A stretch of 23,781 bases of DNA from a virus. This document shows, one piece after another, positions 1,075 through 20,200 of the stretch; positions within the stretch are counted from its first letter, which is position 1; each line of letters begins with the position of its first letter. The notes beneath the pieces were generated by a model that saw only the letters and a program-made list of their open reading frames with translations, was not told where the DNA came from and did no database searches. Location: IMG/VR virus record IMGVR_UViG_3300010885_009880, positions 1-23,781 of that record. One strand, written 5' to 3'. The translations under genes were made by a program, and so were the position numbers.

Positions 1075-1471
1075 TGGCGTCGATTACTCTTTGTCTAAGT
1101 TCAGTGGTGCTGAAACTGTGTTTTCTTTTATTATAATAAAATCTCATGCCCACTATATCACTACCAGTAAAGTCTTTACCTTCATACTCCTCTCCTAGTA
1201 TTCTAACATTAATAGGATAAGAAAGCAAGATATCTTTTAATTCTTTTTCAGTGGCATAAACTATAACTTGATCTACATGCTTACAAGCGTCTAGCTGTAC
1301 ATAGCGTTCAAACACTGTTTGCACTGGTTTATTTTTTGTTGGGCGGTCAATAGATGGATCTGTTTGTAATCCAACTATTAAATGATCGCATTGTCGCTTT
1401 GCTTCTTCAAGCATGATAACATGTCCTGCATGAAACAAGTCAAACGTACTGCAAGTAAATCCTACTCTCAT
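1058..1471 (-). CDS. Cytidylyltransferase-like protein (TagD / glycerol-3-phosphate cytidylyltransferase family)
   Basis: The 137-residue product matches the small nucleotidyltransferase fold. GFTCSTFDLFHAGH opens the chain, with the HxGH motif at residues 14-17 that binds the nucleotide phosphates. The C-terminal HSFSTTELRQR matches the ISSTxLR-type motif. The length fits TagD (about 130 residues). Family members join CTP or ATP to a phosphorylated small molecule such as glycerol-3-phosphate, ethanolamine phosphate or a sugar phosphate; the substrate cannot be read from the sequence. The start overlaps the gp46 stop as ATGA, and AGAGGT lies 6 nt upstream. Such genes occur in marine T4-like phages as host-derived metabolic genes, perhaps acting in surface-polymer or lipid precursor metabolism. 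Confidence 0.85.
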   Translation of the reverse strand: MRVGFTCSTFDLFHAGHVIMLEEAKRQCDHLIVGLQTDPSIDRPTKNKPVQTVFERYVQLDACKHVDQVIVYATEKELKDILLSYPINVRILGEEYEGKDFTGSDIVGMRFYYNKRKHSFSTTELRQRVIDANVKTR

Positions 1472-3246
1472 TCAGTTACCTCTAAATCATTTGCATAACT
1501 TGTATAACCGTTTTCCTTAATAACTTTCAGCACATTGTTTACACGGCCTATTAATTCATCCTTGTGCGAGATTAAGAAAATGTTTTTCTTACGTTCACGT
1601 GCCATTTTCTTTAGCAATGCCAATGCGCCTTCAACGCCCGCGGCATCTAATCCGTTGTCAATTAGCTCATCCACAAACAGCAAGTTAATCTGCTGATATA
1701 AACTTTCCCACACGTCACGGAAGGCAAAGCTCAAGCCAAGAATTAGCCTATTGCGTTCACCACGTGACAAGTTATCAAAATCTAAGTCTTGTCCTAGCTG
1801 GGTGATTAGCACAGTCAAATCGTTTTGAAACATTACTTGATGCGGCAAGCCCATTTTGTCAAGATAGTAAGTTAAACGGTTGTTTAAGTATGCCAAATTT
1901 TGATCAATAATCTTCTTACGGATAAACGAATCTTTACTAGTCAGTAGTTTAAGCAAGAACTCTTGATGGTCCTTAAGACGGGTCAAGTCGTTAACGCCGT
2001 TCCAGTTAATATCCTGTATGGCAGTATGACGCAGTTCGTCAATTTGTTCTTGATAAGGATCGCTTTCTCCAGCTTTGATTTCCAACTGGCTTTCCATAGT
2101 TTTTAAATTGTTCTGATGCTTTAGTGCTTGTTCAACAGTATCGTAATAGGTGTTAGGCTTACCCGGTACCTCACCGATAGGGTCGATTTCTTTTTGTATC
2201 TTAGTGCGGTCGGCTGTGACCTTGTTGAAATATTTTTGGGCTTCGTCAAGGTGCCCTTGTGCTGAGGCTGTCATTTCCTCATGTTTGTGATCATGCAATT
2301 CTTGTTCACAAGCGTGACAGGTCTTGTTTGCCAGTTTGGCGAGCTCGCTGTCATACTTCGTGACGCTTCGCTCCGCTTGCGCTATCGCGCTGTCTAACGT
2401 AGCCCGTTCCTTATTCAGGCTTTTCAGCTTTGCTGTCTTTTCTTCGAAAAGTTTTAGCTCGCTGTGCTTGGCAAGCTCAGCTTCAATATCTACACTTTCA
2501 AGTTCAATGATAGCCCGGCCTATTTTTTCTATCTCTGTATCATGCTGGCTATTCCAAGCTGTTTGCCTTGTTAGCAAACTGTCAATACTTTTTTGTATTC
2601 CTTCGTTAGCTTTTTTAGTAGCTTCAATGTCCGCCGACTCTTGTGTAATGGCTTCTTTAGTCTGTCGAATATGTTCTTTAAGAGCTTCTGCTTTTTCAGA
2701 CAAGATAGTTATACCTAATAACTGTTCGATGATTACCCGTTGATCATTGGCTCGCATACTTAAGAACGGCTCTGTGTATGTGTTCAATGCAACAATGTGC
2801 TTGAACATATCGTGACTCATTCCCAGTAGTTCATCTAAGTCCTTCTGGGTTTCACGCATATCGCCTTGTGCGTCATCGGTTTCTTCGCCTTCTTGTTCTA
2901 TATCGTCAACAAAGAATCTCATTAAGGTAGGCTTTCGCCCTCGTTCAACACGATAGTTAACACCGTCTTTTTCGAATGCCAACGTGACCAACATATTTTT
3001 ATTGTTAATTTTGTTGATTAAGTTGTCTTTCTTAATGTTAGTAAGTGCAGTACCAAACAGCGCAAAGCTCAAGGCATTTACAATAGTCGTTTTACCAGTA
3101 CCGTTGCGTGATCCGTTATCGTCCCCGCCTTGATCCAAATTTTCACCTAGTACAAGTGTTAAATTTTCCTGTGCAAAGTTTACAGCTTGGGTTTGATTAC
3201 CCACACTCATAAAGTTTTTTACTGTTAAATCTTTAAGTTTAATCAT
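1468..3246 (-). CDS. gp46: Recombination endonuclease subunit gp46 (SbcC/Rad50-like ATPase)
   Basis: This is the 592-residue SMC-like ATPase partner of gp47. In T4 the pair resects DNA ends for recombination-dependent replication and host DNA degradation. An N-terminal ATPase half holds the P-loop NGTGKTT at residues 48-54, preceded by a Gly/Asp-rich stretch. Long charged coiled-coil arms follow (about 180-480), with a zinc-hook CHAC at 310-313 at their apex. The C-terminal half has the ABC signature LSRGERNRL (493-501), Walker B LLFVDE ending at 527, and the switch His in LISHKDE (561). T4 gp46 is 560 residues, so length is normal. Its ATG overlaps the gp47 stop (ATGA), consistent with coupled synthesis of the two subunits. 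Confidence 0.96.
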   Translation of the reverse strand: MIKLKDLTVKNFMSVGNQTQAVNFAQENLTLVLGENLDQGGDDNGSRNGTGKTTIVNALSFALFGTALTNIKKDNLINKINNKNMLVTLAFEKDGVNYRVERGRKPTLMRFFVDDIEQEGEETDDAQGDMRETQKDLDELLGMSHDMFKHIVALNTYTEPFLSMRANDQRVIIEQLLGITILSEKAEALKEHIRQTKEAITQESADIEATKKANEGIQKSIDSLLTRQTAWNSQHDTEIEKIGRAIIELESVDIEAELAKHSELKLFEEKTAKLKSLNKERATLDSAIAQAERSVTKYDSELAKLANKTCHACEQELHDHKHEEMTASAQGHLDEAQKYFNKVTADRTKIQKEIDPIGEVPGKPNTYYDTVEQALKHQNNLKTMESQLEIKAGESDPYQEQIDELRHTAIQDINWNGVNDLTRLKDHQEFLLKLLTSKDSFIRKKIIDQNLAYLNNRLTYYLDKMGLPHQVMFQNDLTVLITQLGQDLDFDNLSRGERNRLILGLSFAFRDVWESLYQQINLLFVDELIDNGLDAAGVEGALALLKKMARERKKNIFLISHKDELIGRVNNVLKVIKENGYTSYANDLEVTE

Positions 3247-4283
3247 AAGCTGTTATAAATTTCCAACAAGGTATTTTTGTCATATGTATCGCTGTCAATG
3301 CTAATAATTTGACTGCTAACAATTTGATCCACGCTTTCAAATGCTTGGATATCGATGTTAGTATTCATTTCAAGGTCTTTCTTTTCAGCTATCAAAGTAA
3401 GCTCGCGAATATCATAATCCGCAATAAATTTTTCTTTAATAAAACTTGCTTCTTCATAGCTGATGTCTATATCTAGTGTAACACGTAAATGTTGCTTGGG
3501 CAAGATTAATGTGTCCGCTTCGTCGATTAATTGGCTTAATTTAACTGTACGGAATGTAGGCTGGCCCGGCCAAGTATGATACTCGGGTTGCCCGCCCCAT
3601 TCTAATACCATCATGCCCCTGGCATCATCCCATGCGTCTGCATAGTTGTGCGGGAAAGCATTGCCAATATAAATCATGTTCTTTTGTTGCTGGCGTTTGT
3701 GAAAGTGTCCGCTAAAACCTAACTCGTAACTTTGAAATGCATCTAGTTGTATCTCACCATGATCAGGCATTTGTATCATAGCGTTCATAAAGAAGCTAGG
3801 TAATTCAAAGTGCCCGAAGATATATTTTCCGCCTTTTTTACTTATTGACCGCCATTCGTCTCCGACGAGCCACGGACAAAGCGTAACATCGCCAATGGTA
3901 GTAGGCTCATGTACAACAGTGATACCGGGAATGTATTTTCCAAATTCCACAGAGTGGATGTCCCGTTTATCTTTATAATACAAATCATGATTACCGGGAA
4001 AAAAGTAAAATTGATCAAACGCCTTACCGAGCTTTTCCAAGGCCCTAAGGCTATAGTCCATAGTAGTGATATTAAGACTATTGCGATTGTGATGCCAGTC
4101 GCCCATAAAAATTCCAGTATCACAGCCTTCCTCCTTTGCTTTTGCAATATACCAATCTACGAAATCTTCACAGTCTTGGTTGTGTACTGAGCTGTTAGAT
4201 TTTAACCCAAAGTGAATGTCTGTGAAACAGGCAACCTTATTAAACAGTTGGGGTTTCACTTGGAGTTTCTGTGGTTGTGTCAT
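3243..4283 (-). CDS. gp47: Recombination endonuclease subunit gp47 (SbcD/Mre11-like phosphoesterase)
   Basis: The 346-residue calcineurin-like metallophosphoesterase is close to T4 gp47 (339). The five metal-binding motifs are visible: DIH (22-24), GDWHHN (61-66), GNHD (97-100), GHFE (157-160) and GHFH (192-195). It forms the nuclease part of the gp46/gp47 complex that processes double-strand ends. The ATG at 4283 is supported by AGAGGA at 4292-4297 on the minus strand with an 8-nt spacer. This places the first 44 bp inside the end of the gp55 gene. The C-terminal 100 residues are less distinctive and probably contact gp46. Confidence 0.96.
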   Translation of the reverse strand: MTQPQKLQVKPQLFNKVACFTDIHFGLKSNSSVHNQDCEDFVDWYIAKAKEEGCDTGIFMGDWHHNRNSLNITTMDYSLRALEKLGKAFDQFYFFPGNHDLYYKDKRDIHSVEFGKYIPGITVVHEPTTIGDVTLCPWLVGDEWRSISKKGGKYIFGHFELPSFFMNAMIQMPDHGEIQLDAFQSYELGFSGHFHKRQQQKNMIYIGNAFPHNYADAWDDARGMMVLEWGGQPEYHTWPGQPTFRTVKLSQLIDEADTLILPKQHLRVTLDIDISYEEASFIKEKFIADYDIRELTLIAEKKDLEMNTNIDIQAFESVDQIVSSQIISIDSDTYDKNTLLEIYNSL

Positions 4284-5109: not shown

Positions 5110-5117
5110 TAAAGGTT

Positions 5118-5121
5118 CCTC
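5118..5121 (-). promoter_or_regulatory. Ribosome binding site of gp55, decides the start
   Basis: On the minus strand GAGG precedes the ATG at 5109 with an 8-nt spacer. The frame is open back to a TTG at 5184, but this site and the promoter position select 5109. Confidence 0.65.
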
Positions 5122-5130
5122 GTAAAGTAT

Positions 5131-5159
5131 ATTATAAACTACGCACTTATTAAAGTCAA
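5131..5159 (-). promoter_or_regulatory. Sigma70-type early promoter for the gp55-gp47-gp46 operon
   Basis: On the minus strand TTGACT (plus 5154-5159) is followed by exactly 17 bp and then TATAAT (plus 5131-5136). This is a near-perfect host sigma70 promoter. The expected start is near 5124, giving a leader of about 15 nt before gp55. Early expression by unmodified host polymerase follows from known phage biology. Confidence 0.8.
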
Positions 5160-5166
5160 ATAAATA
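5159..5166 (+). promoter_or_regulatory. T4-type late promoter for the baseplate operon
   Basis: AATAAATA matches the late-promoter octamer (TATAAATA in T4; cyanophages use NATAAATA). It lies 20 bp before the start codon of the first rightward structural gene and shares one base pair with the leftward -35 box. The AGGAGA ribosome binding site (5174-5179) follows. The product that should read it, gp55, is encoded directly on the other side of the spacer. Confidence 0.75.
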
Positions 5167-5186
5167 GAGTATCAGGAGAACCAAAT

Positions 5187-6146
5187 ATGGGTCTATTTAA
5201 TTCAGTTGGCGGTTTAAACCAAACTGTCGGAGCAGTACAAAGTGCATTTGGTGCAATAGGCGCGGCATCCACATTAGCAAGCAATCTTTCAAGTGCGCTC
5301 GACACAGCCGGGCGACTTGCTGATATTAGTTTGCCAGCGTCTGGAGAAGCTGTGGGCGATGTTATGAGTGCAGTTGCAATGTTTGGTGGAGGTGATGCTC
5401 CTAGTAACGATTGGCGGTGCAGGTTAAGTCTCCCATTTTGGCCTAGCTTTAGAAAAAGTCCAGTGTTAGCACCGTTAAAAGATGCTGGAGGATTGATATT
5501 TCCGTATACGCCAACTATTAATATTTCAGAAACAGCCACATATAGTCCAATTAACACTGTGCATAGCAATTATGGTTTTAATGCTTATAAAGCAAGCGAT
5601 CCAGGAATAATTTCTATCGTTGCGCCTATGTATTGCGAAGATGCAACACAAGCATTATACTGGATCGCGGCACTACATTATTTAAGATCTGCTACCAAAA
5701 GTTTTGGTGGAAATGATCCGAAAGCCGGCAATCCACCGCCTGTTGTAAAATTTAATGCCTATGGTAATTATGTTTTTAAAAATGTTCCGGTTGTTATTAC
5801 AAGTATTGCAGTAGCATTACCAAACGATTGCGATTATATTGGATGTAATGTTGTAGGAAGTGCGGCCGGACAAGTTGCAGGTATGCTAGATAGTCTGGGC
5901 GGATTAGCCGGCGATCTAGGCGGTGACGGTATATCGGATGTATTAGGCGGCATTGGACAAATTGCCGGACTACTTGGAACGTTTGGGGTAGGCGGGTCGG
6001 TTAACGGCGGCGTAACGCATGTACCTACAAAAAGTACATTTACTGTTACATTAAAAACCGCGTACAGCAGAACTAGTGTACGTAAGTTTAGTTTAGATCA
6101 ATTTGTAACAGGCGGATATATGAACGGTTCAACAGGATTTATTTAA
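5187..6146 (+). CDS. gp48: Baseplate tail-tube cap/junction protein (gp48/gp54-like)
   Basis: This 319-residue protein is the first gene of the rightward operon. The N-terminal 70 residues are Ala/Gly/Ser-rich and probably helical. Recognisable parts are FPYTPTINISETATYSP, VHSNYGFNAYKASDP, ALYWIAALHYLRSATKSFGG and FKNVPVVITSIAVALPNDCDYI. I recall these from marine T4-like proteins annotated as baseplate tail-tube cap. In T4, gp48 (364 residues) and gp54 (320) close the hub and start tube growth, and I see only one such gene here. A Gly-rich stretch lies at about 230-275. AGGAGA stands 7 nt before the ATG. Assignment to gp48 rather than gp54 is tentative, as the two are structurally similar tube-like proteins. 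Confidence 0.72.
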   Translation: MGLFNSVGGLNQTVGAVQSAFGAIGAASTLASNLSSALDTAGRLADISLPASGEAVGDVMSAVAMFGGGDAPSNDWRCRLSLPFWPSFRKSPVLAPLKDAGGLIFPYTPTINISETATYSPINTVHSNYGFNAYKASDPGIISIVAPMYCEDATQALYWIAALHYLRSATKSFGGNDPKAGNPPPVVKFNAYGNYVFKNVPVVITSIAVALPNDCDYIGCNVVGSAAGQVAGMLDSLGGLAGDLGGDGISDVLGGIGQIAGLLGTFGVGGSVNGGVTHVPTKSTFTVTLKTAYSRTSVRKFSLDQFVTGGYMNGSTGFI

Positions 6147-6147
6147 T

Positions 6148-6450
6148 ATGACAGCTAGATACAGCGACTTTAGTCCGTGGTCATTAACTACAACTACAGA
6201 AAATTATCTTGATTTATTAACGATAAGACCTGTACCAGCGGCCTCTGACGATATTTTATATACAATAGCTTCGCAATACAATATGCGTCCAGATTTATTA
6301 GCATTTGATTTATACGGCAATGCTCAACTATGGTGGGTCTTTATTCAACGCAATATGGATGTATTGCAAGATCCAATATTTGATTTTATTCCTGGAACTA
6401 AGATTTATATCCCTAAAGGATCTAATTTAACTAGTGTGTTAGGCATCTAA
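6148..6450 (+). CDS. gp53: Baseplate wedge protein gp53-like (LysM-type, short)
   Basis: A 100-residue protein begins one base after the previous stop, with AGGA 10 nt upstream. The region ILYTIASQYNMRPDLLAFDLYG, then QLWWVFIQRN, then FDFIPGTKIYIP is the gp53/LysM-like pattern, in which a repeat-like helix pair ends in a Gly-x-x-(I/L)-x-(I/V)-P strand. T4 gp53 has 196 residues, so this is about half length and appears reduced to the LysM-like core. In T4 it joins neighbouring wedges into the hexagonal baseplate. The short tail protein X of P2-like phages is a similar alternative. The position between cap and hub genes supports a baseplate role. Confidence 0.75.
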   Translation: MTARYSDFSPWSLTTTTENYLDLLTIRPVPAASDDILYTIASQYNMRPDLLAFDLYGNAQLWWVFIQRNMDVLQDPIFDFIPGTKIYIPKGSNLTSVLGI

Positions 6451-6451
6451 T

Positions 6452-8695
6452 ATGGCAGAATCTCTTAAAGTTACTGGCAACATTGAAGTACGCACATCGC
6501 CTACAATAACAACAACCATTCCAGATATTCCCGTGGTATCATCGCTTGCTTCGGGTTTATCGTCTCTTGCGACCGGTTTTAAAAATGCAATCACAGGCAA
6601 AGCCAATGTCGGCAAATTAAACTTGCCTATGCCAAACCAATTTTGGAAATATTCAAGTTATAACTATGTGTTTACGATGTTTGCTATCAATACATTTGCA
6701 TATAATAACCCCGGCGATACTTATATGCAAGGTAAAGGCGACCACACTTCGGTTGTATTATCGGGTGCAGGAAAACCTAATACCCGAGTTAAAACAGATC
6801 TTGGCAAATTTGAGTTTTATATAGACGATGTTATAATTGACTGCACATACAGCTTTGACGGTAAAACAGGAAACTCGCATGTACAGACACTAAAATTCAC
6901 AATATATGAACCTTACAGCATGGGAACATTTATGTTGGCATTACAGTCTGCGGCTTTTAAAATGGGATATCCAAGTTACACAGCTTGTAACTTTGTATTA
7001 GCCATTCAATTTATGGGGCAAGATCAATCGGGCTCTATGTCGTCTATTCCAAATACAACAAAATATTTTACATTTCAGTGGACCGGCAAAACAGAAGTAG
7101 ATCTTGATCAAGGCGGATCAAAATATATGTGTACAGCCAAGTCGTCGGCTGAAAGTGCATTGTTACATTCTAATATTAACATAACTCGTGAAATATCATT
7201 TGCTGGCCGAACAGTGTCGGAAGTATTGCAAACCCACCCACAAAGTTTTGCGGCAATGTATAATAAACAATTAAAAGAAATTGCCGAAGCTAACGGGTAT
7301 TATCCTGACGAAATAGCAATATTATTTCCAGCAGATATTGGCAGCGCATCAGCACCACCGGCAGTTGCCGCATCTTCTAATTATGCACCAACAGTTGCTT
7401 TTTACGGTGCAAAAGCAGGTGCAACTTTCCTCGCGCCAGATTTGTTAACTATCGTAGGAGTATCTCGTAACGGCCAAACTAAAAATTTAATTCAACAGTC
7501 TGCTTTAAATGAATTAGGATCATCACCTATTGGTGTTGGGCCAAGCCGTGAGTCATTACCTGAAAGTTTTGGTGCAAAAATATATGACGAAACAACTAGA
7601 AAGTGGGATGAAGCTTTAATTAAAAAAGATATAACAGTTGCCACATACGAGATGCAACAAAACTCTACTGTTATTAATGCAATTAACCAGGTACTATTAT
7701 CTAGCGAATATTCAGCTAAGGTATTAAAAACTAAGCCTGACGAAATGGGTATGCGTAAAATGTGGAATATTGTTCCAAGCGAATATCATGTTGAAGATAA
7801 AGCAACTGTTGACGCTCGAGGCCGCAAGCCAAAATTATTAGTATATCGAGTAGTACCGTATCAAGTGTTAGCAGCCTCGCTTATAGCAATACCTGGTGCA
7901 AGTGTAGCTGCCAACAAGTATAAAAATTTATTAGCTCAGATTCCTAAAGCATACGATTATTTTTATACTGGAAAAAATACAGATATTATTAATTTACAAA
8001 TAAAATTTAATCAAAATTTTGCTTCATATCTATCTAATGACAATTGGCGAAGAAGTCTTGAACTTGCGACCGAAGAAGGTAGATTGCGCACTAAACAAAC
8101 TGACATTGTATTTGAAAAAGCTCATCCTGTTTACACTCCAGCTAAGGGTTTACAAAGTATTCTTAATTTTATTGGAACATCTTCTGAAACTAATAAAAAA
8201 GGCGGCGGCCCGAACGATACAGAAGATCATCGTGCAACACGTTCTTTATTTGATGCTATGCTGTATGGTGCAGCCATGATGCAAATTGAAATGGAAATAC
8301 ATGGTGATCCGTTCTGGCTTGCTAGTAGTGGCTCCGGCAATTACATAGCTAAAGAAACACAGTATGCAAATGTAAACAGCGATTTAAGTGTTAATATTCA
8401 TAACGGTCAAGTAGATATGATAGTAAGGTTTAAAACACCAACTGATATTAACGATTCTACAGGATTATACAATTTAAATGGTAGTCAGGCCCTGCTACAA
8501 TACAGCGGAATATACAAAGTACTAAAAGTAGAACATCGATTCGTAGACGGTAAATTTACACAACGTATCTTTGCAAACAAACATCAAATCGAAGGCGGCA
8601 TACCTGAGGGTGTTGATTATAGCCCTAAGAAAACAATACCAAGAGTACCGGATACTTCGGCAACGGTCCCAACACAATACCCTGCTAGCAAATAA
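6452..8695 (+). CDS. Large baseplate hub-like structural protein
   Basis: This is a 747-residue protein. After an Ala/Ser/Thr-rich start (residues 1-60), QFWKYSSYNYVFTMFAINTF opens a folded region. KFTIYEPYSMGTFMLALQSAA follows and resembles segments of hub or tube-associated proteins. The C-terminus has SGIYKVLKVEHRFVDGKFTQRI (685-706), the strand pattern that closes gp27/gpD-type hub proteins and other tail-hub proteins bound to a spike. It lies directly before gp5, where a hub carrier of the spike would be expected. T4 gp27 has 391 residues, so this is almost double. Neighbouring genes in related phages are sometimes annotated VrlC. Hub function is an inference from position and the C-terminal pattern. 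Confidence 0.65.
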   Translation: MAESLKVTGNIEVRTSPTITTTIPDIPVVSSLASGLSSLATGFKNAITGKANVGKLNLPMPNQFWKYSSYNYVFTMFAINTFAYNNPGDTYMQGKGDHTSVVLSGAGKPNTRVKTDLGKFEFYIDDVIIDCTYSFDGKTGNSHVQTLKFTIYEPYSMGTFMLALQSAAFKMGYPSYTACNFVLAIQFMGQDQSGSMSSIPNTTKYFTFQWTGKTEVDLDQGGSKYMCTAKSSAESALLHSNINITREISFAGRTVSEVLQTHPQSFAAMYNKQLKEIAEANGYYPDEIAILFPADIGSASAPPAVAASSNYAPTVAFYGAKAGATFLAPDLLTIVGVSRNGQTKNLIQQSALNELGSSPIGVGPSRESLPESFGAKIYDETTRKWDEALIKKDITVATYEMQQNSTVINAINQVLLSSEYSAKVLKTKPDEMGMRKMWNIVPSEYHVEDKATVDARGRKPKLLVYRVVPYQVLAASLIAIPGASVAANKYKNLLAQIPKAYDYFYTGKNTDIINLQIKFNQNFASYLSNDNWRRSLELATEEGRLRTKQTDIVFEKAHPVYTPAKGLQSILNFIGTSSETNKKGGGPNDTEDHRATRSLFDAMLYGAAMMQIEMEIHGDPFWLASSGSGNYIAKETQYANVNSDLSVNIHNGQVDMIVRFKTPTDINDSTGLYNLNGSQALLQYSGIYKVLKVEHRFVDGKFTQRIFANKHQIEGGIPEGVDYSPKKTIPRVPDTSATVPTQYPASK

Positions 8696-8698
8696 CAA

Positions 8699-8706
8699 CT
8701 ATAAAC
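8699..8706 (+). promoter_or_regulatory. Possible weak late promoter before gp5
   Basis: TATAAAC appears within CTATAAAC in the 29-bp gap before gp5 and matches six bases of the late octamer TATAAATA before diverging. It lies 19 bp before the start codon, much like the two better sites. The ribosome binding site here is poor, with GGA about 15 nt upstream. Confidence 0.25.
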
Positions 8707-8724
8707 GGATAATAAAAAATAAGT

Positions 8725-10263
8725 ATGTCAAATAATAGAAATCCAAGTATCGATAGAAGACGCCCCGCCAACGAGTTGCCTGACGGAAAATCCGGCCCAT
8801 TTTTAGCTAAAGTAATACATGTAGTTGATCCTGAATATATGGGGAAAATCCGTGTGCAAATTTTGCACGTTGGATCTAATGGAAGTACTACTAACGGAGA
8901 ACTAGCCTGGGCAACCTACATGAGTCCGTTTTTTGGAACGACCAATGTTGACTATTTAGGTCAGGCTACAAAAGGTAAAGCGGCGTTTGATGATACACAA
9001 AAAAGTTACGGAATGTGGGTACCAACTCCTGATATAGGAACTACTGTTATTGTAATGTTTATAGAAGGCATGGCAAACAAAGGTTATTGGTTTGGATGTG
9101 TTCCAGAAAAATACAAAAATTTTATGGTGCCTGGTATAGCATCGACAAGTTTAAATGCGGATTATGTAGCAGAACAAGGTAGAGTTCCGGTAGCAGAATT
9201 TAATGCAGTATTAAACGACAAATCGGCAGATTCTCCGACCAGTGTTATTAAGCCTGTACATCCTTTTATTTTTAACTCGTTAAAAAAACAGGGATTAATT
9301 TATGATGATATACGCGGTATAACATCGTCTAGTGCTAGGCGAGAAAGTCCTAGCAGAGTATGGGGTATTAGCACTGCCGGCCCGGTAGACAAAGACGGCC
9401 CAACCGGAACAATTGGATCTCCTGAAGAAACAGCTAGTGCCGCCCATAGTAGACTAGGCGGAAGTAGTTTTGTTATGGATGATGGTGATGAAAAATTTAT
9501 CCGGGATAAACCGGCATCGTCAGCACCTCCAAAGTACAATTATGTAAAGCCTAAAACTCCGCCAATCGGTGATAAAACAATTCCGCATAATGAATTAATT
9601 CGTCTAAGAACTAGGACCGGGCATCAGATACTTTTACATAACAGCGAAGATTTAATTTATATCGGCAATGCAAAAGGAACTGCATGGATAGAATTAACTA
9701 GCAATGGAAAAATTGATATTTTTGCGGATGACAGCATTAGTATACACACATCACAAGATTTAAACATTAGAGCTGACAGAGATATTAATTTAGAAGCAGG
9801 CCGAAACGTTAATATAAAATCTGTTAAAAAAACACATATTGAATCTGCTGATGATTTTGAACTAGTTCTTGGATATGACGGATATATTACAACCAAGGGT
9901 AATTTATACGTTAAGACAAAAGGAGACAACACATTTTCGGCTGGCGGAAACACTAGTTTGAAAAGTGTCGGAACTCATGCTGAAACTGCTGATAAAATTT
10001 ATATGAATAGTAGTGTTTCAGCACCTGAAGCAAAGTCTGCTTTAGAGTTAACTACTACACTCGTTCCTAATGCTTATTACAGCACAAAGTCAATACTAAG
10101 ACGTATTCCATCTAAAGAGCCGTGGGTACACCATGAAAATTTAGACCCTATGCAATTTAAACCAGATAATACTGATAGAGACGTAACAACAGAACTAACG
10201 GTTCCTGATTATTATCAAAATTATACAGCGCCGTTAGATACATTTAAACAAGGTGGAGGATAA
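8725..10263 (+). CDS. gp5: Baseplate central spike gp5 (no lysozyme domain)
   Basis: The 512-residue spike has two recognisable parts. Residues 25-135 form an OB-fold (GPFLAKVIHVVDPEYMGKIRV, then GTTVIVMFIEGMANKGYWFG). From about 290 there is a beta-helix-type region: LRTRTGHQILLHNSEDLIYIGN, KIDIFADDSISIHT, LNIRADRDINLEAGRNVNIKS. Such repeats wind into a trimeric needle. The middle part (135-290; IRGITSSSARRESPSRVWGIS, SRLGGSSFVMDDGD) holds no lysozyme-like motif, unlike T4 gp5 (575 residues). The tail PWVHHENLDPMQF is a recognisable C-terminal mark of marine versions. It should pierce the outer envelope mechanically, and wall digestion must come from elsewhere. The C-terminal Gly codons contain the gp25 ribosome binding site. 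Confidence 0.93.
   Translation: MSNNRNPSIDRRRPANELPDGKSGPFLAKVIHVVDPEYMGKIRVQILHVGSNGSTTNGELAWATYMSPFFGTTNVDYLGQATKGKAAFDDTQKSYGMWVPTPDIGTTVIVMFIEGMANKGYWFGCVPEKYKNFMVPGIASTSLNADYVAEQGRVPVAEFNAVLNDKSADSPTSVIKPVHPFIFNSLKKQGLIYDDIRGITSSSARRESPSRVWGISTAGPVDKDGPTGTIGSPEETASAAHSRLGGSSFVMDDGDEKFIRDKPASSAPPKYNYVKPKTPPIGDKTIPHNELIRLRTRTGHQILLHNSEDLIYIGNAKGTAWIELTSNGKIDIFADDSISIHTSQDLNIRADRDINLEAGRNVNIKSVKKTHIESADDFELVLGYDGYITTKGNLYVKTKGDNTFSAGGNTSLKSVGTHAETADKIYMNSSVSAPEAKSALELTTTLVPNAYYSTKSILRRIPSKEPWVHHENLDPMQFKPDNTDRDVTTELTVPDYYQNYTAPLDTFKQGGG
10255..10260 (+). promoter_or_regulatory. Strong ribosome binding site of gp25 inside the gp5 end
   Basis: GGAGGA encodes the last two Gly of gp5 and stands 5 nt before the gp25 ATG. 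This ties gp25 translation to that of gp5. Confidence 0.7.
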
Positions 10264-10265
10264 TA

Positions 10266-10715
10266 ATGGCAACCGATTTGTACAATAAAATTTCAATCCC
10301 AGCTGTGCCGGTTACAAAAATTCCGTCACCTAAAGCATACAAGGGATTTAGCACTATTAATTCAGCCAGCGAAAATTTTGCATTATATGATTTTGAATTA
10401 ATCAAACAAGATTTAATTAATTATTTTCACATCCGCAAAGGCGAACGTTTAATGAATCCAGACTGGGGAACAATCATATGGGATAGTTTATTTGAACCTA
10501 TGACTGAACAGTTAAAAGAACAGATTGTTTCTAATGTCAATGACATTATTAACTCGGATCCTCGGTTAGTGGCAAAAAACATACTTGTTACTACTTATGA
10601 AAGCGGAATACAAATAGAGTGTACGTTAACCTATTTGCCTTACAATATTACTCAAAGTATGCAATTAAAATTTGACCAAGATAACGGTATTGCAAACAAT
10701 AGAATTGGGTCTTAA
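10266..10715 (+). CDS. gp25: Baseplate wedge protein gp25
   Basis: The 149-residue product belongs to the gp25/GPW family (T4 gp25, 132 residues; related to TssE of type VI secretion). The conserved core is at 40-80: LYDFELIKQDLINYFHIRKGERLMNPDWGTIIWDSLFEP, where GERLMNPDWG is the equivalent of the family's EPR-type motif. It forms the inner wedge core that helps start sheath assembly. The gene follows gp5 after a 2-bp gap and precedes gp6, its partner in the wedge. The C-terminal strand pattern (IQIECTLTYLPYN) fits the family. Despite old names, no lysozyme activity is expected. Confidence 0.93.
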   Translation: MATDLYNKISIPAVPVTKIPSPKAYKGFSTINSASENFALYDFELIKQDLINYFHIRKGERLMNPDWGTIIWDSLFEPMTEQLKEQIVSNVNDIINSDPRLVAKNILVTTYESGIQIECTLTYLPYNITQSMQLKFDQDNGIANNRIGS

Positions 10716-10741
10716 CATTAAGTACGCACATAATAAAAAAC

Positions 10742-10749
10742 AATAAATA
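10742..10749 (+). promoter_or_regulatory. T4-type late promoter before gp6
   Basis: AATAAATA is identical to the octamer at 5159-5166 and lies 19 bp before the gp6 start, in a 53-bp gap between genes. TAGGA follows as ribosome binding site. It should start an extra late transcript for gp6 and the giant gene. Confidence 0.7.
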
Positions 10750-10768
10750 CGATTACTAGGATATATTC

Positions 10769-13700
10769 ATGAGCTCAACCGATAGACAAAATAGACTGTT
10801 AATAAACCAGGATTGGACTAAAGTTTACCAGTCTTTCCGTAATGCGGACTTTCAAAGTTATGACTTTGAAAATTTACGCCGCACAATGGTTGACTATATC
10901 CGTCAAAATTTCCCCGAAGATTTCAACGATTATATTGAGTCAAGTGAGTACTTGGCCCTTATCGACCTTATTGCATATATTGGTCAAAGCATAGCTTTCC
11001 GCGTTGACTTAAATGCCCGTGAAAACTTTTTAGAGCTTGCTAGCCGTCGTGATAGTGTATTAAGGCTAGCAAGATTGTTGGGCTACAATGCAAAACGTAA
11101 TATTCCTAGCAAAGGTTTATTAAAATTTACTAACGTTACAACAACGGAAACTGTTATCGATAGCAACGGCCGCAATTTAGCCAATCAAGTTATTACATGG
11201 AACGACACCACAAATAGTAATTGGTATGAACAATTTATCAGCGTTTTAAATGCGGCATTTAATACAACGCAACAGTTTGGAAATCCAAGTGATAGTGCAA
11301 CTATTAATGGAATCCCTACAGAACAATACAGATTTAATGCCAACAATGCCAATGTTCCAGTTTACGGATTTACTAAAGCGGTAAATGGTACTAGTATGGA
11401 TTTTGAAGTTACTAGCACTACATTTAGTAATCAAACGTATATCTATGAAGAAGCACCAAAAATTTCTAACCGTATAGCTTGCGTTTATAGAAATGACGGA
11501 CAGGGCAATGGTAGTACAAATACTGGATTCTTTTTTAATTTTACTCAAGGTAATTTAAATCAAGGCACATTTACAATTACACAGCCGACTACAAACCAAA
11601 GTATCGATTTTAACAGTACAGATATTAATAATACAGATATTTGGTTGTATAAATTAGACACTGCTGGAGCAGAAGGCGGATTATGGACACAAGTTCCTGC
11701 TTTGACTGGAAACAATATTGTTTATAATAGTTTAAACAAAGCTATTAAAGATATCTATTCTGTTACTACAAAAGCAAGTGATCAGATTAGTATTAATTTT
11801 AGTGACGGCACATTTGGAACATTACCACTTGGAACTTTTAGATCTTATTATAGAATTAGTAATGGGGAAACTTATACAATTAATCCTCAAGATATAAGAG
11901 GTGTTACCTTAAATATTCCTTATATCAGTTCTACTAATCAAGCACATACATTAACTGTTACATTAGCATTACAAACAAGCGTAACTAATGCCAGTGCTAG
12001 TGAAACAAATGCTGAAGTAAAACAAAATGCTCCAGCAACATACTACACTCAGAATCGTATGATTACCGGCGAGGACTATAATATCAGTCCATTGTCAGTT
12101 ACACAAGAAATTGCAAAAGTAAAAGCAGTAAACCGTTCAAGTAGCGGTATAAGTCGATATTTTGATCTAGTTGACCCAACAGGAAAATACAGCAGTACTA
12201 ATTTATTTGCTGACGATGGCATACTTTATCAACAAGATTTTACTACAAATTTTAATTTTACCTACTCTAATAGAACACAAGCTTCAAACATAATTTATAA
12301 TCAAATATTTGAAATATTAGACGATCCAAACCTTCGTAATTTTTATTACAGCAAGTATAACGGAGTTAATACCACTAGTTTAGGAATTGCGTGGTATCAG
12401 AAATCTAAAGATAGTAATCATTCAACAGGATATGTTGGAAGCTCATCAATAGATGCGAAACCGTATCAAGTAGGTAGTACTACCAGTACCGATTTACAAT
12501 TTTTAGTAGTAGGATCTTTAATTAAATTTGTTGCACCTACAGGAACATATTTTAATCTTAATAATAAAAATGCATTAGTCACAGGTACTCCGACTACTTC
12601 AAATACTAGCACTTATATATGGACAGAAGTTACAGGTATAGTAGGCGATGGTACTGCTAGCGGCACTGGGGTGTTATCAACTGGCCTCGGCCCGTTATCA
12701 TTAAATGATATTATACCAACTGGTGCTTCAATTGCACAGATTATTCCTGCTTGGAAAACAATTATTAGTACTAGTGTAGTATCTACAATGATCGATTTAA
12801 TAGCAAATAGCAGTCCATTTGGTCTGCGCTACGACCTTGCAACACAAAGTTGGCAAATTGTTTTTCAATCTAACTTAGATTCAATGGAAAAATTTAGTTT
12901 AAACCACCAGGGCGATACTACAAATTTAAAATTAGATTCTAGTTGGTTGTTATTATTTGTTACCGACACTATAACATATACTGTTACAACAAGAAAATTA
13001 CAATATATCTTTGAAAGCAACGAACAATTACGTTTTTACTTTGATTCAACACAGCGTATCTATGATAGCACAATGAAACAAGTTATTAACGACGAAGTTA
13101 AGGTACTAGGAATTAATACACAGCCCGGTAGTGTAAATCCATTTACTTTCGATCAGCGATTTAAAATTGTATCAACTTTTGTTGGGTTAGACGGATACAT
13201 TGATACTAAAAAGATCATAATTACGTTTGGAGATAAGAGCGGAACAACAGTTGTGCAAGATCCCGATGCATTTAACAACATTGTTTATAATAACACTACT
13301 CCTAGCTATATTGTGTTGGAGTTATATACTGTTGAACAAGGCCAGCAAGATTACAAATATATTGATAATACAAATAATATTGTGTTAATATTTGCTAATG
13401 CAAGCCAACTGTCATCGTATTCTAATTATACCGACGGTCAATATTTCTATTTTACTGATTCTGATACTGTTTTACAATTAAATCAGACTACTAGTACATT
13501 AATACCAAGTTTAAACTACAAAGTTTTTGTTGGTAGAGATAAGTTAAAATTTCAATACACTCATAGTGCCGACGACCAAAGTCGAATTGATCCAGGAGTA
13601 AGTAATATTATTGATATTTTTGTATTAACTAAAGGATATGATATTGTTTTTAGACAGTGGTTATCAAACGCAATCGCCACAAAACCTTTACCTCCAAGCA

Positions 13701-14230
13701 GTGATGAATTATACAATGTAATTGCTCCTGACTTAAATTTAATTAAATCTATAAGTGATGAAATTATATATCATCCGGTAAAATATAAAATATTATTTGG
13801 ATCAAAAGCAGACTCTCAATATAAAGCACAATTTAAAGTTATTGTAAATCCGTCAATTGTTATTAGTACGAATGATATTAAAACACAAATCCTTGCGGCC
13901 ATAAATGCATTTTTTGAATTAGGTAATTTTGATTTTGGGGATACATTTTATTTTTCAGAACTAGCAACTTATGTTATGAACATACTATCGCCGAACATTA
14001 CTAATTTTGTAATTGTACCTACCGGTAATACATTATCGTTCGGCGGCCTATTTGAAATCACAGCCGGGCCTGATGAAGTATTCATCAGCGCCGCAACAGT
14101 AGACAACATAGATGTTGTAACAGCAATAACACCGACAACCATTAATAGTCTTGGTAGCGTAACGTCTTCGACAAACGTGTTATCTAACCAATCATTAACA
14201 AGCTCATCATACGGATCAACTAATGTCTGA
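10769..14230 (+). CDS. gp6: Baseplate wedge protein gp6 (long form)
   Basis: The 1153-residue product carries the clear gp6 N-terminus: NQDWTKVYQSFRNADFQSYDFENLRR, then DYIRQNFPEDFNDYIESSEYLALIDLIAYIGQSIAFRVDLNARENFLELASRRDSVLRLARLLGYN (residues 13-107). A C-terminal region (about 951-1110) has the J-like pattern of baseplate wedge proteins: QAKFKVIVNPS-like strands, INAFFELGNFDFGDTFYFSELATYVMNIL. T4 gp6 has 660 residues. The ~500 additional residues are Asn/Thr/Ser-rich and lie in the middle (about 200-900), which suggests inserted surface domains. In T4, gp6 dimers form the ring that clamps the wedges and opens on contraction. The gene overlaps the next by 8 bp. Confidence 0.92.
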   Translation: MSSTDRQNRLLINQDWTKVYQSFRNADFQSYDFENLRRTMVDYIRQNFPEDFNDYIESSEYLALIDLIAYIGQSIAFRVDLNARENFLELASRRDSVLRLARLLGYNAKRNIPSKGLLKFTNVTTTETVIDSNGRNLANQVITWNDTTNSNWYEQFISVLNAAFNTTQQFGNPSDSATINGIPTEQYRFNANNANVPVYGFTKAVNGTSMDFEVTSTTFSNQTYIYEEAPKISNRIACVYRNDGQGNGSTNTGFFFNFTQGNLNQGTFTITQPTTNQSIDFNSTDINNTDIWLYKLDTAGAEGGLWTQVPALTGNNIVYNSLNKAIKDIYSVTTKASDQISINFSDGTFGTLPLGTFRSYYRISNGETYTINPQDIRGVTLNIPYISSTNQAHTLTVTLALQTSVTNASASETNAEVKQNAPATYYTQNRMITGEDYNISPLSVTQEIAKVKAVNRSSSGISRYFDLVDPTGKYSSTNLFADDGILYQQDFTTNFNFTYSNRTQASNIIYNQIFEILDDPNLRNFYYSKYNGVNTTSLGIAWYQKSKDSNHSTGYVGSSSIDAKPYQVGSTTSTDLQFLVVGSLIKFVAPTGTYFNLNNKNALVTGTPTTSNTSTYIWTEVTGIVGDGTASGTGVLSTGLGPLSLNDIIPTGASIAQIIPAWKTIISTSVVSTMIDLIANSSPFGLRYDLATQSWQIVFQSNLDSMEKFSLNHQGDTTNLKLDSSWLLLFVTDTITYTVTTRKLQYIFESNEQLRFYFDSTQRIYDSTMKQVINDEVKVLGINTQPGSVNPFTFDQRFKIVSTFVGLDGYIDTKKIIITFGDKSGTTVVQDPDAFNNIVYNNTTPSYIVLELYTVEQGQQDYKYIDNTNNIVLIFANASQLSSYSNYTDGQYFYFTDSDTVLQLNQTTSTLIPSLNYKVFVGRDKLKFQYTHSADDQSRIDPGVSNIIDIFVLTKGYDIVFRQWLSNAIATKPLPPSSDELYNVIAPDLNLIKSISDEIIYHPVKYKILFGSKADSQYKAQFKVIVNPSIVISTNDIKTQILAAINAFFELGNFDFGDTFYFSELATYVMNILSPNITNFVIVPTGNTLSFGGLFEITAGPDEVFISAATVDNIDVVTAITPTTINSLGSVTSSTNVLSNQSLTSSSYGSTNV

Positions 14231-17200
14231 TAAAATCAATCCAACCGGATCAAGTTCACAAACCGCTGTAGATTTAGTTCCTAAATTTTACCAAACTCGA
14301 GACAACGTAAAATTTATACAATCTACAATTGACCAGTTAGTTCAGAAAGGAACTACTAAAAAAATTAGCGGATATATTGGACGAGAAAATGCTAAATCTG
14401 CCGCAGGCACTGATACTTTTATCGATGCAATCGACACTACACGACAGAACTATCAACTTGAGCCCGGTGTAGTAGTAAATGATCGTTTAGGAAATACGAC
14501 ATTTTTTAAAGATTATATTGATTATATTAATCAACTAACTGTCTTTGGCGGCAATACAGACAACCATGAACGTATTAATAAACAAGAATTTTATAGCTGG
14601 AGTCCGCATATCGATTGGGATAAATTTGTAAATTTCCAACAATATTACTGGCTTCCATACGGCCCTGAAACAATTACTGTTTATGGACAACAAAAAAATA
14701 TTGTTAGTACATATACAGTTGTTGTAGAAACCGAATTAAGCAATAAGGAATATTTGTTTACTCCTAACGGATTAACACGGAATCCAAGCCTGATATTATA
14801 CAGAGGACAAACTTATCATTTTGATATTACAAGCATAGGCGAACCGTTCAGTATTAAAACTGCTAGGACTCTTGGTAATCAAGATCGATACATTGATGAT
14901 GCAAAATCAGTTGATAATTTTGCCGTTACTACCGGAAAGGTAACATTTACAGTTCCTACTAATGCTCCGGATTTGCTTTATTATGTAAGTGAAAATGATC
15001 CTAATTTAGGCGGAATTTTTAAAATACTCGACGTTAACGAAAATAGTTCTATCGATGTCGATGCTGATTTTTTAGGAAAGAAAACATATACGTTAGCTTC
15101 TGGGGATTCGATTAGCAACGGCATGAAAATATCTTTTGGCGGCAATGTTACACCTACAAAATATTCAACAGGGGAGTATTATGTTGAAGGAGTTGGCACA
15201 GCAATTACATTAATACCAACTACTGTATTAGAAGTAATTGGCGCATATACTGAAACAAAAATATTAAATTACGACGAAACCCCGTTTGATCAATACCCAC
15301 TTGATCAAACAAGCACGTATGCAAACTCCCAAGATTACATTGTAATTAATAGAAGCGCAATCGATAAAAATGCCTGGAGCCGATATAACCGTTGGTTCCA
15401 CAAGGATGTTGTTGCAACTAGCGCAAAATTAAATGGTACAAGTTTAGATTTAAATCAAACAGTGAGAGCAACACGGCCCATTATTGAATTTGAAGCAGGA
15501 TTAAGATTATTTAATTTTGGTAGCATTGCTATCAACGATGTAGATGTAGTTGATAATTTTACAATAGATGCATTTAATACCATCGAAGGATCGGCTGGAT
15601 ATAATATAGACGGAACACAATTAACAGAAGGAATGAAAGTTGTTTTCCTAGCTGAAAAAGATCCGCTAATACAAAATAACATTTACCTAGTTCGTTTTAT
15701 CAATATACAAAATGCAGGCAGTGGAAAACCGCAAATACACTTAGAATTAGTTGGAACACCGGCCAAGGACAATACTATATTAGTTAAACAGGGCAAATCT
15801 TATCAAGGTTATATGTTTTGGTTTAACGGAACAAGTTGGGTTTACGGACAGCAAAAAACTAAAGTAAATCAGCCTCCGTTATTTGATTTAGTTGACAATG
15901 ATAAGACTTTGTTGTCTAGTTATTCGGGTAGTACATTCTCGGGAACAAAGATATTTTCATATAAAGTTGGAACCGGCGTAAATGATACTGTTTTGGGATT
16001 TCCGTTAAGTTATCAAAATATTAATAATATCGGAGATATTAAATTTGAATTTAATTTATTAACAGATACTTTCAATTATAAAGAAAGTGATTTACTAATC
16101 ACTAAAAGTATTAACATTGGATTTTTGAAACAATTAAATTACGTTAATAATGTATCTTATACAAACGGTTGGCAAACAAGTGCAGTTACAAAATATCAAG
16201 CTGGTATTAGAATTTATAAAAATTCCAACCTAGTTAATAATTTTCCGTTGGACATTTATGATAATAAAACTGACCTTGCAGACTTAGAAGTTAGAATTTA
16301 TATTAACGGAATACGACTAGATAAACATAAATGGTCGTTATTAGATGCGGCAAATTATAAAGTAATTAAACTGTCATCTAACATTGCTTTGACTGATGTT
16401 TTAACAATTAGAGCTTTTGCTAAACAATCAATTAATAAAAATGGTTACTACGAAATACCAATAAACTTACAAAATAATCCACTAAACGAAGACATGACTA
16501 TGTTTACATTGGGAGAAGTAAGTGATCATGTTAATAGTATTATTGATAATTTGCAAACAACTTTCACTGGATCGTTTCCTGGAAACAATAATTTAAGAGA
16601 CTTGGGTAATATTACTCCTTACGGAACAAAATTTGTACAGCATAGTAGTCCCGCAAGTCTTAGTTTATTCCATATTGCATCAGAAGATAGTAATGTTGTA
16701 AAATCTTTAGAACAAGCAAGCAACGACTACGGTAAATTTAAACGAAATTTTATTGCTAAATCACAAACCCTAGGAACTCACGGTGATGCGGTATCTCAAG
16801 TAGATTCAATTTTACTTAAACTAACATCAAATAAATCTAAGCTAACACCTTATTACTTTAGCGATATGATACCATTTGGCGCTAAGAAAATTAGTAATTA
16901 TACTGTTGTCGATCCTAGAATTACAACATATCCGTTAACTAATATATTTGATAATACTGTGTTATCAAACAAAGCAGTTGGAGTATACATTGGTACAAAT
17001 CAATTACTATACGGATTAGACTATACATTTACAACAGATGGATATGTAAACATTAGTGCCGCTTTAGTTAAAAATCAAATAATTACCGTTTACGAATATG
17101 ACAGTACTGACGGATGTTATGTTCCTGCGACGCCTTCTAAACTAGGATTATGGCCAAAATATACTCCTGAGATATTCTTAGATACATCGTTTATAAACCC

Positions 17201-20200
17201 AGTTAAAATGATTCGAGGACATGACGGTAGTTTAACTTTAGCATACAACGACTATCGAGACGAATTAATTTTAGAGTTAGAAAAACGAATTTACAATAAT
17301 ATTAAAGTATCTTATGATATTAATATATTTGATGTTGGATCTGTAATCCCAGGATATTCGAGAGATACCGAATATACATTGTCTGAGTTTAATCAAACTC
17401 TTGCTCCAAACTTTTATAGTTGGGTTACAATGGTAGGCGCCAATTTTACAAAACCAATATCTTTTGATTTAGCTAATGCATTCACATATAATTTTAAAGG
17501 ACATAGCGCCCCTGATGGCAGAGGTGTACCGGGATACTGGAGAGGTATATACCAATGGGTATATGACACTGATAGGCCTCATTTGTTTCCGTGGGAAATG
17601 TTAGGGTTTTCAGAAAAACCAAGTTGGTGGACAAGTTTATACGGCCCCGCTCCGTATACTAATGATAATTTAGTCATGTGGACTGACATAAGTTTAGGCG
17701 CCATTCGTGAGCCTGGCATGCCAACTACATATAGACCTAATTATGCAAAACCTTTTCTACTAGATCACTTACCAGTAGACGGGTCTGGAAATTTAATCAA
17801 TCCAGTACAAGTTAACATAGCACTAGGCCCTGAAACATTAGATGTTAGTTCTAATTTTGTGTTCGGTGATAATAGTCCTGCCGAAGCCGCGTGGAGAAAA
17901 AGTAGTTATTATCCTTTCAGTGTAATCTCAACAGCGATGATTTTAAAACCATCGAAAACATTTGGATTAACACTTGATAAATCTAGAATTAAACGAAATC
18001 TTTCAGGACAATTAGTTAATACTGATACTCATTTGCGTATCCGTCCAATGGATATAGCTATACCTAGCATTTATTCTAGCACTGATCGTATTCAAACTAG
18101 CGGTATTATAAATTATATTATTGATGACCTAGTACATGAAAATTTAAATTTTTATAATCAATACCAATATGCTTTACAGAATTTAGAAGTGAAATTGAGT
18201 TATCGAATTGGATCTTTTACAACAAAAACAAATTTTAATTTATTATTAGATAGTAAAAATCCTGCGGCGACTGGTAGTTTATTTGTTCCTCCGGAAGACT
18301 ATTCTATTATTTTTAATAGTTCTAGTCCTGTTAAAAAATTATCCTATAGTGGTGTAATTATAACTAAAACAGATACTGGATACGAAGTACAAGGTTACAG
18401 TTTATCAACACCTTACTTTAATTATTATAACTGGACACAGAGTTCTGGTGCGGTAACTATTGGCGGCATTAGTGCGCCTTATGCTCAATGGCAAGCTAGC
18501 CAACAATATACTACTGGACAGGTTGTATTTTATAACGGAATTTATTACAGAACTATAGCTAATACTAATTCCGGTGATACATTTAATCCACGATCTTTTG
18601 TTAAATTAGCCGAACTACCTATATCCGGCGGAGTAACTGCTAGTTTTAGAAAAACATGGGACAGAACAGATGCAGTAACAATTCCATACGGAACCATATT
18701 AAATTCAATACAAGAAGTTGTTGATTTTTTAACTGGATACGGAGAATGGTTAAAAGATCAAGGATTTGTATTCGAAGAATTTAACGACAAACTAAGTGCA
18801 GTTAGCAACTGGGAAACTAGTGCAAAAGAATTTATGTTTTGGACTACACAGAACTGGTCTACTTCTTTAAATTGGTCAGACTGGTTGCCTAATAAATTAA
18901 TTCCAGCAGGCACTATTGTAAAATATAATGGTGTTTATTATAAAGCATTAGATGTACAAGCGGCATCAGCAGTTTTTATAGCTAGCGATTTTTCAAAGAT
19001 TGCAGATATCAATAGTAGCGGAAATGCTGTTATCAGTTTAAGCCCGGCGGCAAATAGTTTAACATTTACTGCTGAAATGGCAGTTGTTGACGATGTTAAT
19101 AATTCGTTTAATCAATATGAGATTTTTAAAGTTGATGGCACCAGCTTACAGCCGGCCGATTTAAATAGCATACGACAAGGAAATACTATAAATTATGTTC
19201 CGAGAGAAAACGGAACAATTTATAATGCTAGTTTTTATCTAATACAAAAAGAACAAGTAGTAATTTTAAACAATACTACTATGTTTAATGATGTAATTTA
19301 TAATCCTGCAAGTGGTTATAGACAAGAACGCATTAAAGTAAACGGTTTTGTTGCAAGCCAGTGGTTTGGAGGATTTGAAGTTCCTGGCTTTATATTTGAT
19401 AGAGCTGAAATTACAGAATGGAAACCTTATACAACATATTATCCTGGTGACATAGTTAAACAGGGACAGTTTTATCTTCAAGCAGATCCTACCGGTAATG
19501 CTGTACAAGGTACTGCAACTATAGATACTAATCAATGGTTTTTATTAACTAAGAAACCAGAATCTAAACTAATACCTAACTGGACTTATAAAGCCAGCCA
19601 GTTTACCGATTTTTATAATTTAGACGAAGATAACTTTGACACAGGGCAACAGCAAATTGCACAGCATTTAATCGGATATCAGGATCGTCAATATCTTGAC
19701 AATATTATTCAAGATAAAGTTAGCGAATTTCAATTTTATCAAGGCTTTATTAAAGAAAAAGGCACACAAAATAGTCTTAATAAACTATTTGATGTTCTAA
19801 GTACTGACAATAAAGAAAGTTTAAATTTTTATGAAGAGTGGGCAATACGAGTAGGCCAATACGGAGCCAGTTCTGCGTTTGATACTGTTGAATTTATTTT
19901 AGATGAAACAAGTTCTACTATTAATCCTCAAGGATTTTATTTAGTAAATCAGCCAGAAGAAACTCCAACTAATTTTAATATAAATTTATTACCTAAGGAT
20001 TTATATCTTGCACCGCTAGGGTACAATTCAAATCCGTTTCCTTATAATAAGGAGTTTGCACCATTTTTAAGATCAGGCGGATATGTACAAGTTGATTCAA
20101 CAGTTATACAACTTCCGTCTATAGATACTTTAGAAACAGAAGATATTTCTAAATACGCAGATGGCATGTTTATCTGGACACCGTTTTATCAGACAAGCTG

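Follow-up and report, generated by a model that had tools for sequence, protein, structure and literature searches.

When a phage makes its late sigma factor from an early operon, the question arises of how the synthesis of that factor is coupled to the genes that it is to transcribe. T4 late transcription depends on gp55, gp33 and the sliding clamp, and is the standard example of a promoter reduced to its -10 element, which is selected only by the phage sigma factor and the clamp. The DNA analysed here (23,781 nucleotides, positions 1 to 23,781 of IMG/VR record IMGVR_UViG_3300010885_009880; hereafter the window) carries a gp55-type sigma factor gene and a baseplate operon that diverge from one short spacer, in which a host-type early promoter and a T4-type late promoter can be recognized. 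A preliminary description of this sequence proposed that host sigma70 polymerase and gp55 polymerase exclude each other at the spacer, so that gp55 could shut off its own early operon as it turns on the baseplate operon.

Organization of the gp55/gp48 spacer

The spacer comprises 77 bp (5110–5186), and is bounded by the start of gp55 on the minus strand (5109) and by the start of the gp48-like ORF on the plus strand (5187; Table 1). The two hexamers of the leftward promoter, TTGACT and TATAAT, are separated by a 17-nt gap on the minus strand, and base 5159 is common to the leftward -35 element and the rightward late element AATAAATA, as had been described. The leftward promoter also precedes gp55, and the rightward one the gp48 baseplate operon, in agreement with the genes that the preliminary description had named. 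Transcription is predicted from standard spacing to start at about 5124 leftward and about 5172 rightward, leaving leaders of about 15 nt on each side, each of which contains a Shine-Dalgarno sequence.

The leftward unit forms a tight operon, as gp55 overlaps gp47 and gp47 overlaps gp46. The identities of gp47, gp46, gp53, the gp5-like protein and gp25 were upheld, while the label gp48 for 5187–6146 reflects only its position and a PHROG match to a structural protein. The gp6 gene comes after gp25, downstream of the rightward baseplate operon, and is followed by an ORF (14223–23781) for a very large virion protein, 3186 aa or longer, which continues past the end of the window. At the other end of the window, a near-perfect 18-bp palindrome, ATAAACTATGTAGTTTAT (791–808), is situated at the start codon of the gene for a SegE-like GIY-YIG endonuclease, is kept in two relatives (G001 and G014) and has no late box; it is a candidate operator, or a candidate RNA hairpin over the start site.

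Table 1. Features of the gp55/gp48 region and of the gp6 promoter, in window coordinates.
Feature	Position	Strand	Basis or remark
gp46 (SbcC-like)	1468..3246	-	
gp47 (SbcD-like)	3243..4283	-	Overlaps the end of gp55
gp55, predicted late sigma factor, 289 aa	4240..5109	-	First gene of leftward operon gp55-gp47-gp46
Early -10 of leftward gp55 promoter, TATAAT	5131..5136	-	Sequence match and conservation
18-bp imperfect dyad ATAAACTACGCACTTATT, proposed operator	5134..5151		Overlaps early -10 and spacer
Early -35 of leftward gp55 promoter, TTGACT	5154..5159	-	Sequence match and conservation
Late -10 element AATAAATA of gp48-53-5-25 baseplate operon	5159..5166	+	[AC]TAAATA conservation
gp48-position virion structural protein	5187..6146	+	First gene of rightward late operon
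Remaining late baseplate operon: gp53 (6148), structural protein (6452), gp5-like hub (8725), gp25 (10266)	6148..10715	+	
Second dyad copy ATTAAGTACGCACATAAT, upstream of gp6 late promoter	10717..10734		48 loci, same spacing
Late -10 ATAAATA of gp6-like gene (ORF 10769–14230)	10743..10749	+	Only other ATAAATA of the window

Conservation and chance expectation of the two promoters

Conservation was assessed in 80 viral contigs with a related gp55 (73–98% identity), one of which is incomplete, the other 79 and the window giving 80 full-length sequences. [AC]TAAATA stands beside GTCAA in all 80 of these (ATCAA in one), and the leftward promoter reaches at least 10/12 in 67 of 67 non-redundant sequences, with a mean score of 11.15 in the 67 relatives versus 8.10 in shuffled sequences under the criterion TTGACA-16/18-TATAAT, by which the window scores 11/12. 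The register is identical in 65/67 non-redundant sequences, the T of TAAATA being placed exactly 2 bp from the first T of the -35 element, and stays fixed while the leaders on either side vary in length; the two exceptions probably reflect the choice of another match by the scanner. Both TTGACT and TTGACA are present among the relatives as -35 versions. Per-column conservation amounts to 94–100% for ATTATA of the early -10 element (66 non-redundant relatives) and to 98–100% for GTCAA of the early -35 element in this spacer. When the whole viral collection was scanned with the correct spacing, 63 of the 80 matches adjoined gp55, versus 0 of 80 in a negative control with the spacing one base short. 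This conservation is decisive for both predicted promoter elements being real, and close relatives, to which the preliminary description had looked for confirmation, keep both of them. In this group of large T4-like phages, the predicted early promoter of gp55 and late promoter of the baseplate operon are back to back within the same 36 bp.

Within the first 12 kb of the window, the leftward match (11/12) scores highest among sigma70-like sequences. Such matches are no commoner than expected as a class (40 observed versus 40.2 expected in 12 kb), about one site of at least 11/12 being expected per window, so a lone match of this kind would be unremarkable. ATAAATA is strongly depleted in the window (2 copies versus 17 expected), and both copies stand 19–20 nt before baseplate start codons. 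In simulated sequence of the same composition, an ATAAATA that is overlapped by a divergent sigma70 match of 11/12 or better turns up about 0.006 times per window.

A conserved dyad associated with the late promoter

The 17-nt 'spacer' between the early hexamers is itself conserved; its commonest form is ATAAACTACGCACTTAAT, from which window positions 5134–5151 differ by one change. In the gp48 and gp6 sets, independently, the strongest palindromy has an identical centre 18.5 bp upstream of TAAATA, which corresponds to about -29.5 of the late start if the late box is assumed to lie at -13 to -6, as it does in T4 (PMC1524935). The dyad is imperfect, with about 64% of the pairs complementary at gp48 and 53% at gp6, and a perfect version, ATTAACTACGTAGTTAAT, is found upstream of a tail-tube-like gene in one relative.

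A dyad profile derived from the gp48 sites, and scored 8–10 nt upstream of TAAATA, matched 31 of the 216 TAAATA sites preceding an ORF versus none of the 679 other TAAATA sites, and each of three control offsets gave 1/1506 matches. More than half of the 31 sites precede genes outside the profile set, namely gp6, the gene of a tail-tube-like protein (PHROG 4542) and that of a phrog_11259 protein; two further genes carry the dyad as well, while most late promoters in the same contigs go without it. A universal element of late promoters was thus rejected, only 31/216 gene-proximal sites having the dyad. At gp6 the dyad and the late -10 element are present, and TTGAC (with it GTCAA of the early -35) and the first three bases of ATTATA are not conserved, so that the predicted early promoter is specific to the gp55 spacer. 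GTCAA as a general part of late promoters was likewise rejected, as it is absent at gp6 and at other late promoters. Conservation of the spacer for reasons of sigma70 recognition was also rejected, since the block recurs at late promoters and follows the late promoter where the two promoters are separated.

By these comparisons, the dyad belongs to the predicted late promoter and is not neutral spacer of the early one. It appears to be a previously unrecognised element, which also marks a few other late promoters of tail genes; a literature search among papers accessible without subscription returned no description of the promoter arrangement or of the dyad. Since the stretch between the early hexamers holds a conserved dyad that goes with the late promoter, a third participant is likely. 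The two-player switch of the preliminary description is sound as to its two promoter elements, which are real by conservation; its mechanism is plausible, and incomplete in that it missed this third element. Searches of this clade with MotA (PF09114) and HTH_3 gave no match and did not identify a dyad-binding protein, the MotA search being uninformative because its control was equally silent.

The late sigma factor

The gp55 of the window (PHROG 12791) aligns by sequence with T4 gp55 over residues 134–237. Its structural model (pLDDT 81.5) superimposes on T4 gp55 (7d7c_F) with a Z score of 14.0 and an rmsd of 2.4, the 119 aligned residues spanning model residues 6–269. By sequence and predicted fold it is a T4-type late sigma factor. 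The protein has about 120–130 residues more than T4 gp55, ahead of the part matching T4; this extra region (residues ~25–145) is confidently folded in the model and was found by tblastn only in gp55 of this jumbo-phage group. The structural comparison suggests that the extra residues are inserted between the first helix and sigma domain 2, and that they are not purely N-terminal. A fused gp33 was considered for this region and rejected, as hhalign against T4 gp33 was without match.

Variation in a sister clade

In the sister clade D, whose gp55 is 61–64% identical to that of the window over the aligned rows, the distance from the early -35 element to the late box is bimodal (1–2 bp, n=8; 27–38 bp, n=24; others, n=2). 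Where the promoters are separated, the early promoter lies about 30 bp off and the dyad accompanies the late one (79% overall). The single shared base pair of the preliminary description is a lineage-specific trait, and a tight overlap is not required for viability, as the sister clade tolerates a separation of 27–38 bp. Mapped onto a tree of 98 gp55 sequences, overlap versus separation requires only two changes, which may be two gains or a gain and a loss.

A leftward (A/T)TAAATA stands beside the rightward TAAATA in 20 of the 28 distinct late segments of clade D (L471–L529), versus 0/39 in the window clade, and is a candidate late promoter of gp55 itself in clade D, which may provide positive feedback. 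The shutoff of the gp55 operon by its own product, as proposed for the window, is possible there, and the window has no leftward ATAAATA by which late transcription of that operon could continue. In clade D, the leftward box suggests that gp55 is also transcribed late, which would be the opposite of such a shutoff.

A predicted early-to-late node

The reading that we prefer, and in which our confidence is about even, is that the spacer is a compact early-to-late node of three superposed elements, with the dyad as the operator of a dimer in the manner of phi29. Early in infection, host sigma70 polymerase would read the leftward promoter, leading to gp55, gp47 and gp46, and would cover the late promoter. 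Later, gp55-polymerase would read the rightward late element and start the baseplate operon, with a footprint covering the early promoter. Mutual exclusion would follow from each polymerase covering the core elements of the other, and the two footprints must collide if both predicted promoters are in fact used. The dyad would serve as operator for a putative dimeric DNA-binding factor at a few tail and baseplate late promoters. Bound over the -10 element and spacer of the early promoter, this factor would block that promoter, as phi29 p4 does at A2b/A3, and would act, with either sign, on the late one. More tentatively, a dimeric regulator, either phage-encoded or hijacked from the host, might read the -30 dyad, time tail initiation separately and shut off gp55 synthesis, which is possible but somewhat doubtful.

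If this more tentative reading is true, a phi29-style switch would have been built onto the T4 late system, together with a dedicated sub-class of late promoters for baseplate and tail-tube-like genes. The late genes would come under a further level of control, exerted through a conserved -30 element on a defined subset of their promoters, and the position of this element inside the early promoter of gp55 would explain how the onset of tail assembly is coupled to the cessation of gp55 synthesis. The phage group concerned is abundant and environmental, and the prediction is precise to the base.

Exclusion between sigma70- and gp55-polymerase could also operate with two players, the dyad being an extra contact of the gp55 holoenzyme that strengthens a few late promoters. 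The fixed distance between the dyad and the late -10 element is as expected of a polymerase contact, and the additional gp55 residues described above, confined to the jumbo group, are a possible contact region. However, the symmetry of the dyad points to a dimer rather than to a sigma contact, most late promoters of the same genomes do without it, and the 121Q-type clade has the long gp55 and no dyad at this promoter; a purely two-player exclusion is for us unlikely, if still a serious contender. It is quite improbable that genome compaction alone is at work, a short spacer forcing an overlap of promoters that are used at different times, with no effect that matters. Sigma70 transcription is shut off in other ways in T4-like phages, and sister clades function with promoters 27–38 bp apart; compaction alone, however, would let the spacing drift, whereas the exact register persists in 65 of 67 non-redundant relatives despite their variable leaders. 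That one or both promoters are non-functional chance matches, as the lack of enrichment of sigma70-like matches in the window might allow, is scarcely credible in view of the conservation, the spacing control and the low expectation per window.

Comparison with known systems

The rightward promoter resembles T4 late promoters in its TATAAATA-like box (ATAAATA/CTAAATA), which precedes late structural genes by about one turn, and in the gp55 homologue encoded next door, while it differs in that a subset of the late promoters carries the 18-bp dyad near -30. For T4 late promoters the literature describes no upstream or -35 element (PMC2988020), so the dyad is a real difference from T4. T4 DsbA, which is non-essential, binds weakly to AT-rich sites and has sites overlapping two late promoters (PMC2988020), is a DNA-binding protein acting at a subset of late promoters; it is not known to be linked to the window dyad.

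The closest system in its manner of working would be phi29, the comparison being one of working likeness only. There, a p4 dimer at site 3 overlaps the -35 element of A2b and activates the late promoter A3 (PMC3100819), and both systems have divergent, overlapping early and late promoters. In phi29 an inverted repeat overlaps the early promoter and precedes the late one; here an imperfect dyad occupies that place, and its binding is a prediction. The phi29 late promoter uses host polymerase and p4, whereas the late promoter of the window would use a phage sigma factor from the early operon.

Early and late promoters are also found together in the T4-like phages RB49 and S-PM2, where they are apparently combined at one gene and are described as replacing the middle mode (PMC2984593); both promoters serve the same gene there, whereas they are divergent here. 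CBB and GAP32 share the gene order around gp55, an ATAAATA late motif and a gp55 gene behind a predicted promoter (PMC5259590). The gp55 promoter there has TGAAACG in place of TTGACA and is without a dyad, and the passages covered here do not discuss its divergence from the late promoter.

More distant relatives and other divergent late promoters

The gene order is retained in PA5oct-like and 121Q-like phages, usually together with both types of promoter, while the exact node of the window is absent. The nearest cultured phages, PA5oct, Paride, 121Q and CBB, likewise share the gene order and lack the node in this form. The PA5oct genome has a dyad at the right offset at one site (49613) among 611, which is not significant alone. 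In Atu_ph07 (L085, 2890–2998), which has a gp55 of only about 40% identity, the corresponding spacer contains GTCAACTAAATA and the dyad-like ATTAAATTAGTAGTTAAT, so the promoter node may predate the window clade, but no clear leftward -10 element was seen in this spacer.

In both Phosso and Atu_ph07 (L084 and L085), an adenylyltransferase gene is the first divergent late gene, ahead of the gp48-like gene; in the window, a cytidylyltransferase-like gene (1058–1471) is instead located at the distal end of the operon that gp55 begins. The late promoters of a 275-aa gene (G003:36465, G004:66378, G007:78865, G013:58416 and similar sites) have TGCGTATATAAATA facing TTTATC (leftward GATAAATA) about 12–20 bp further on, and are possibly paired divergent late promoters.
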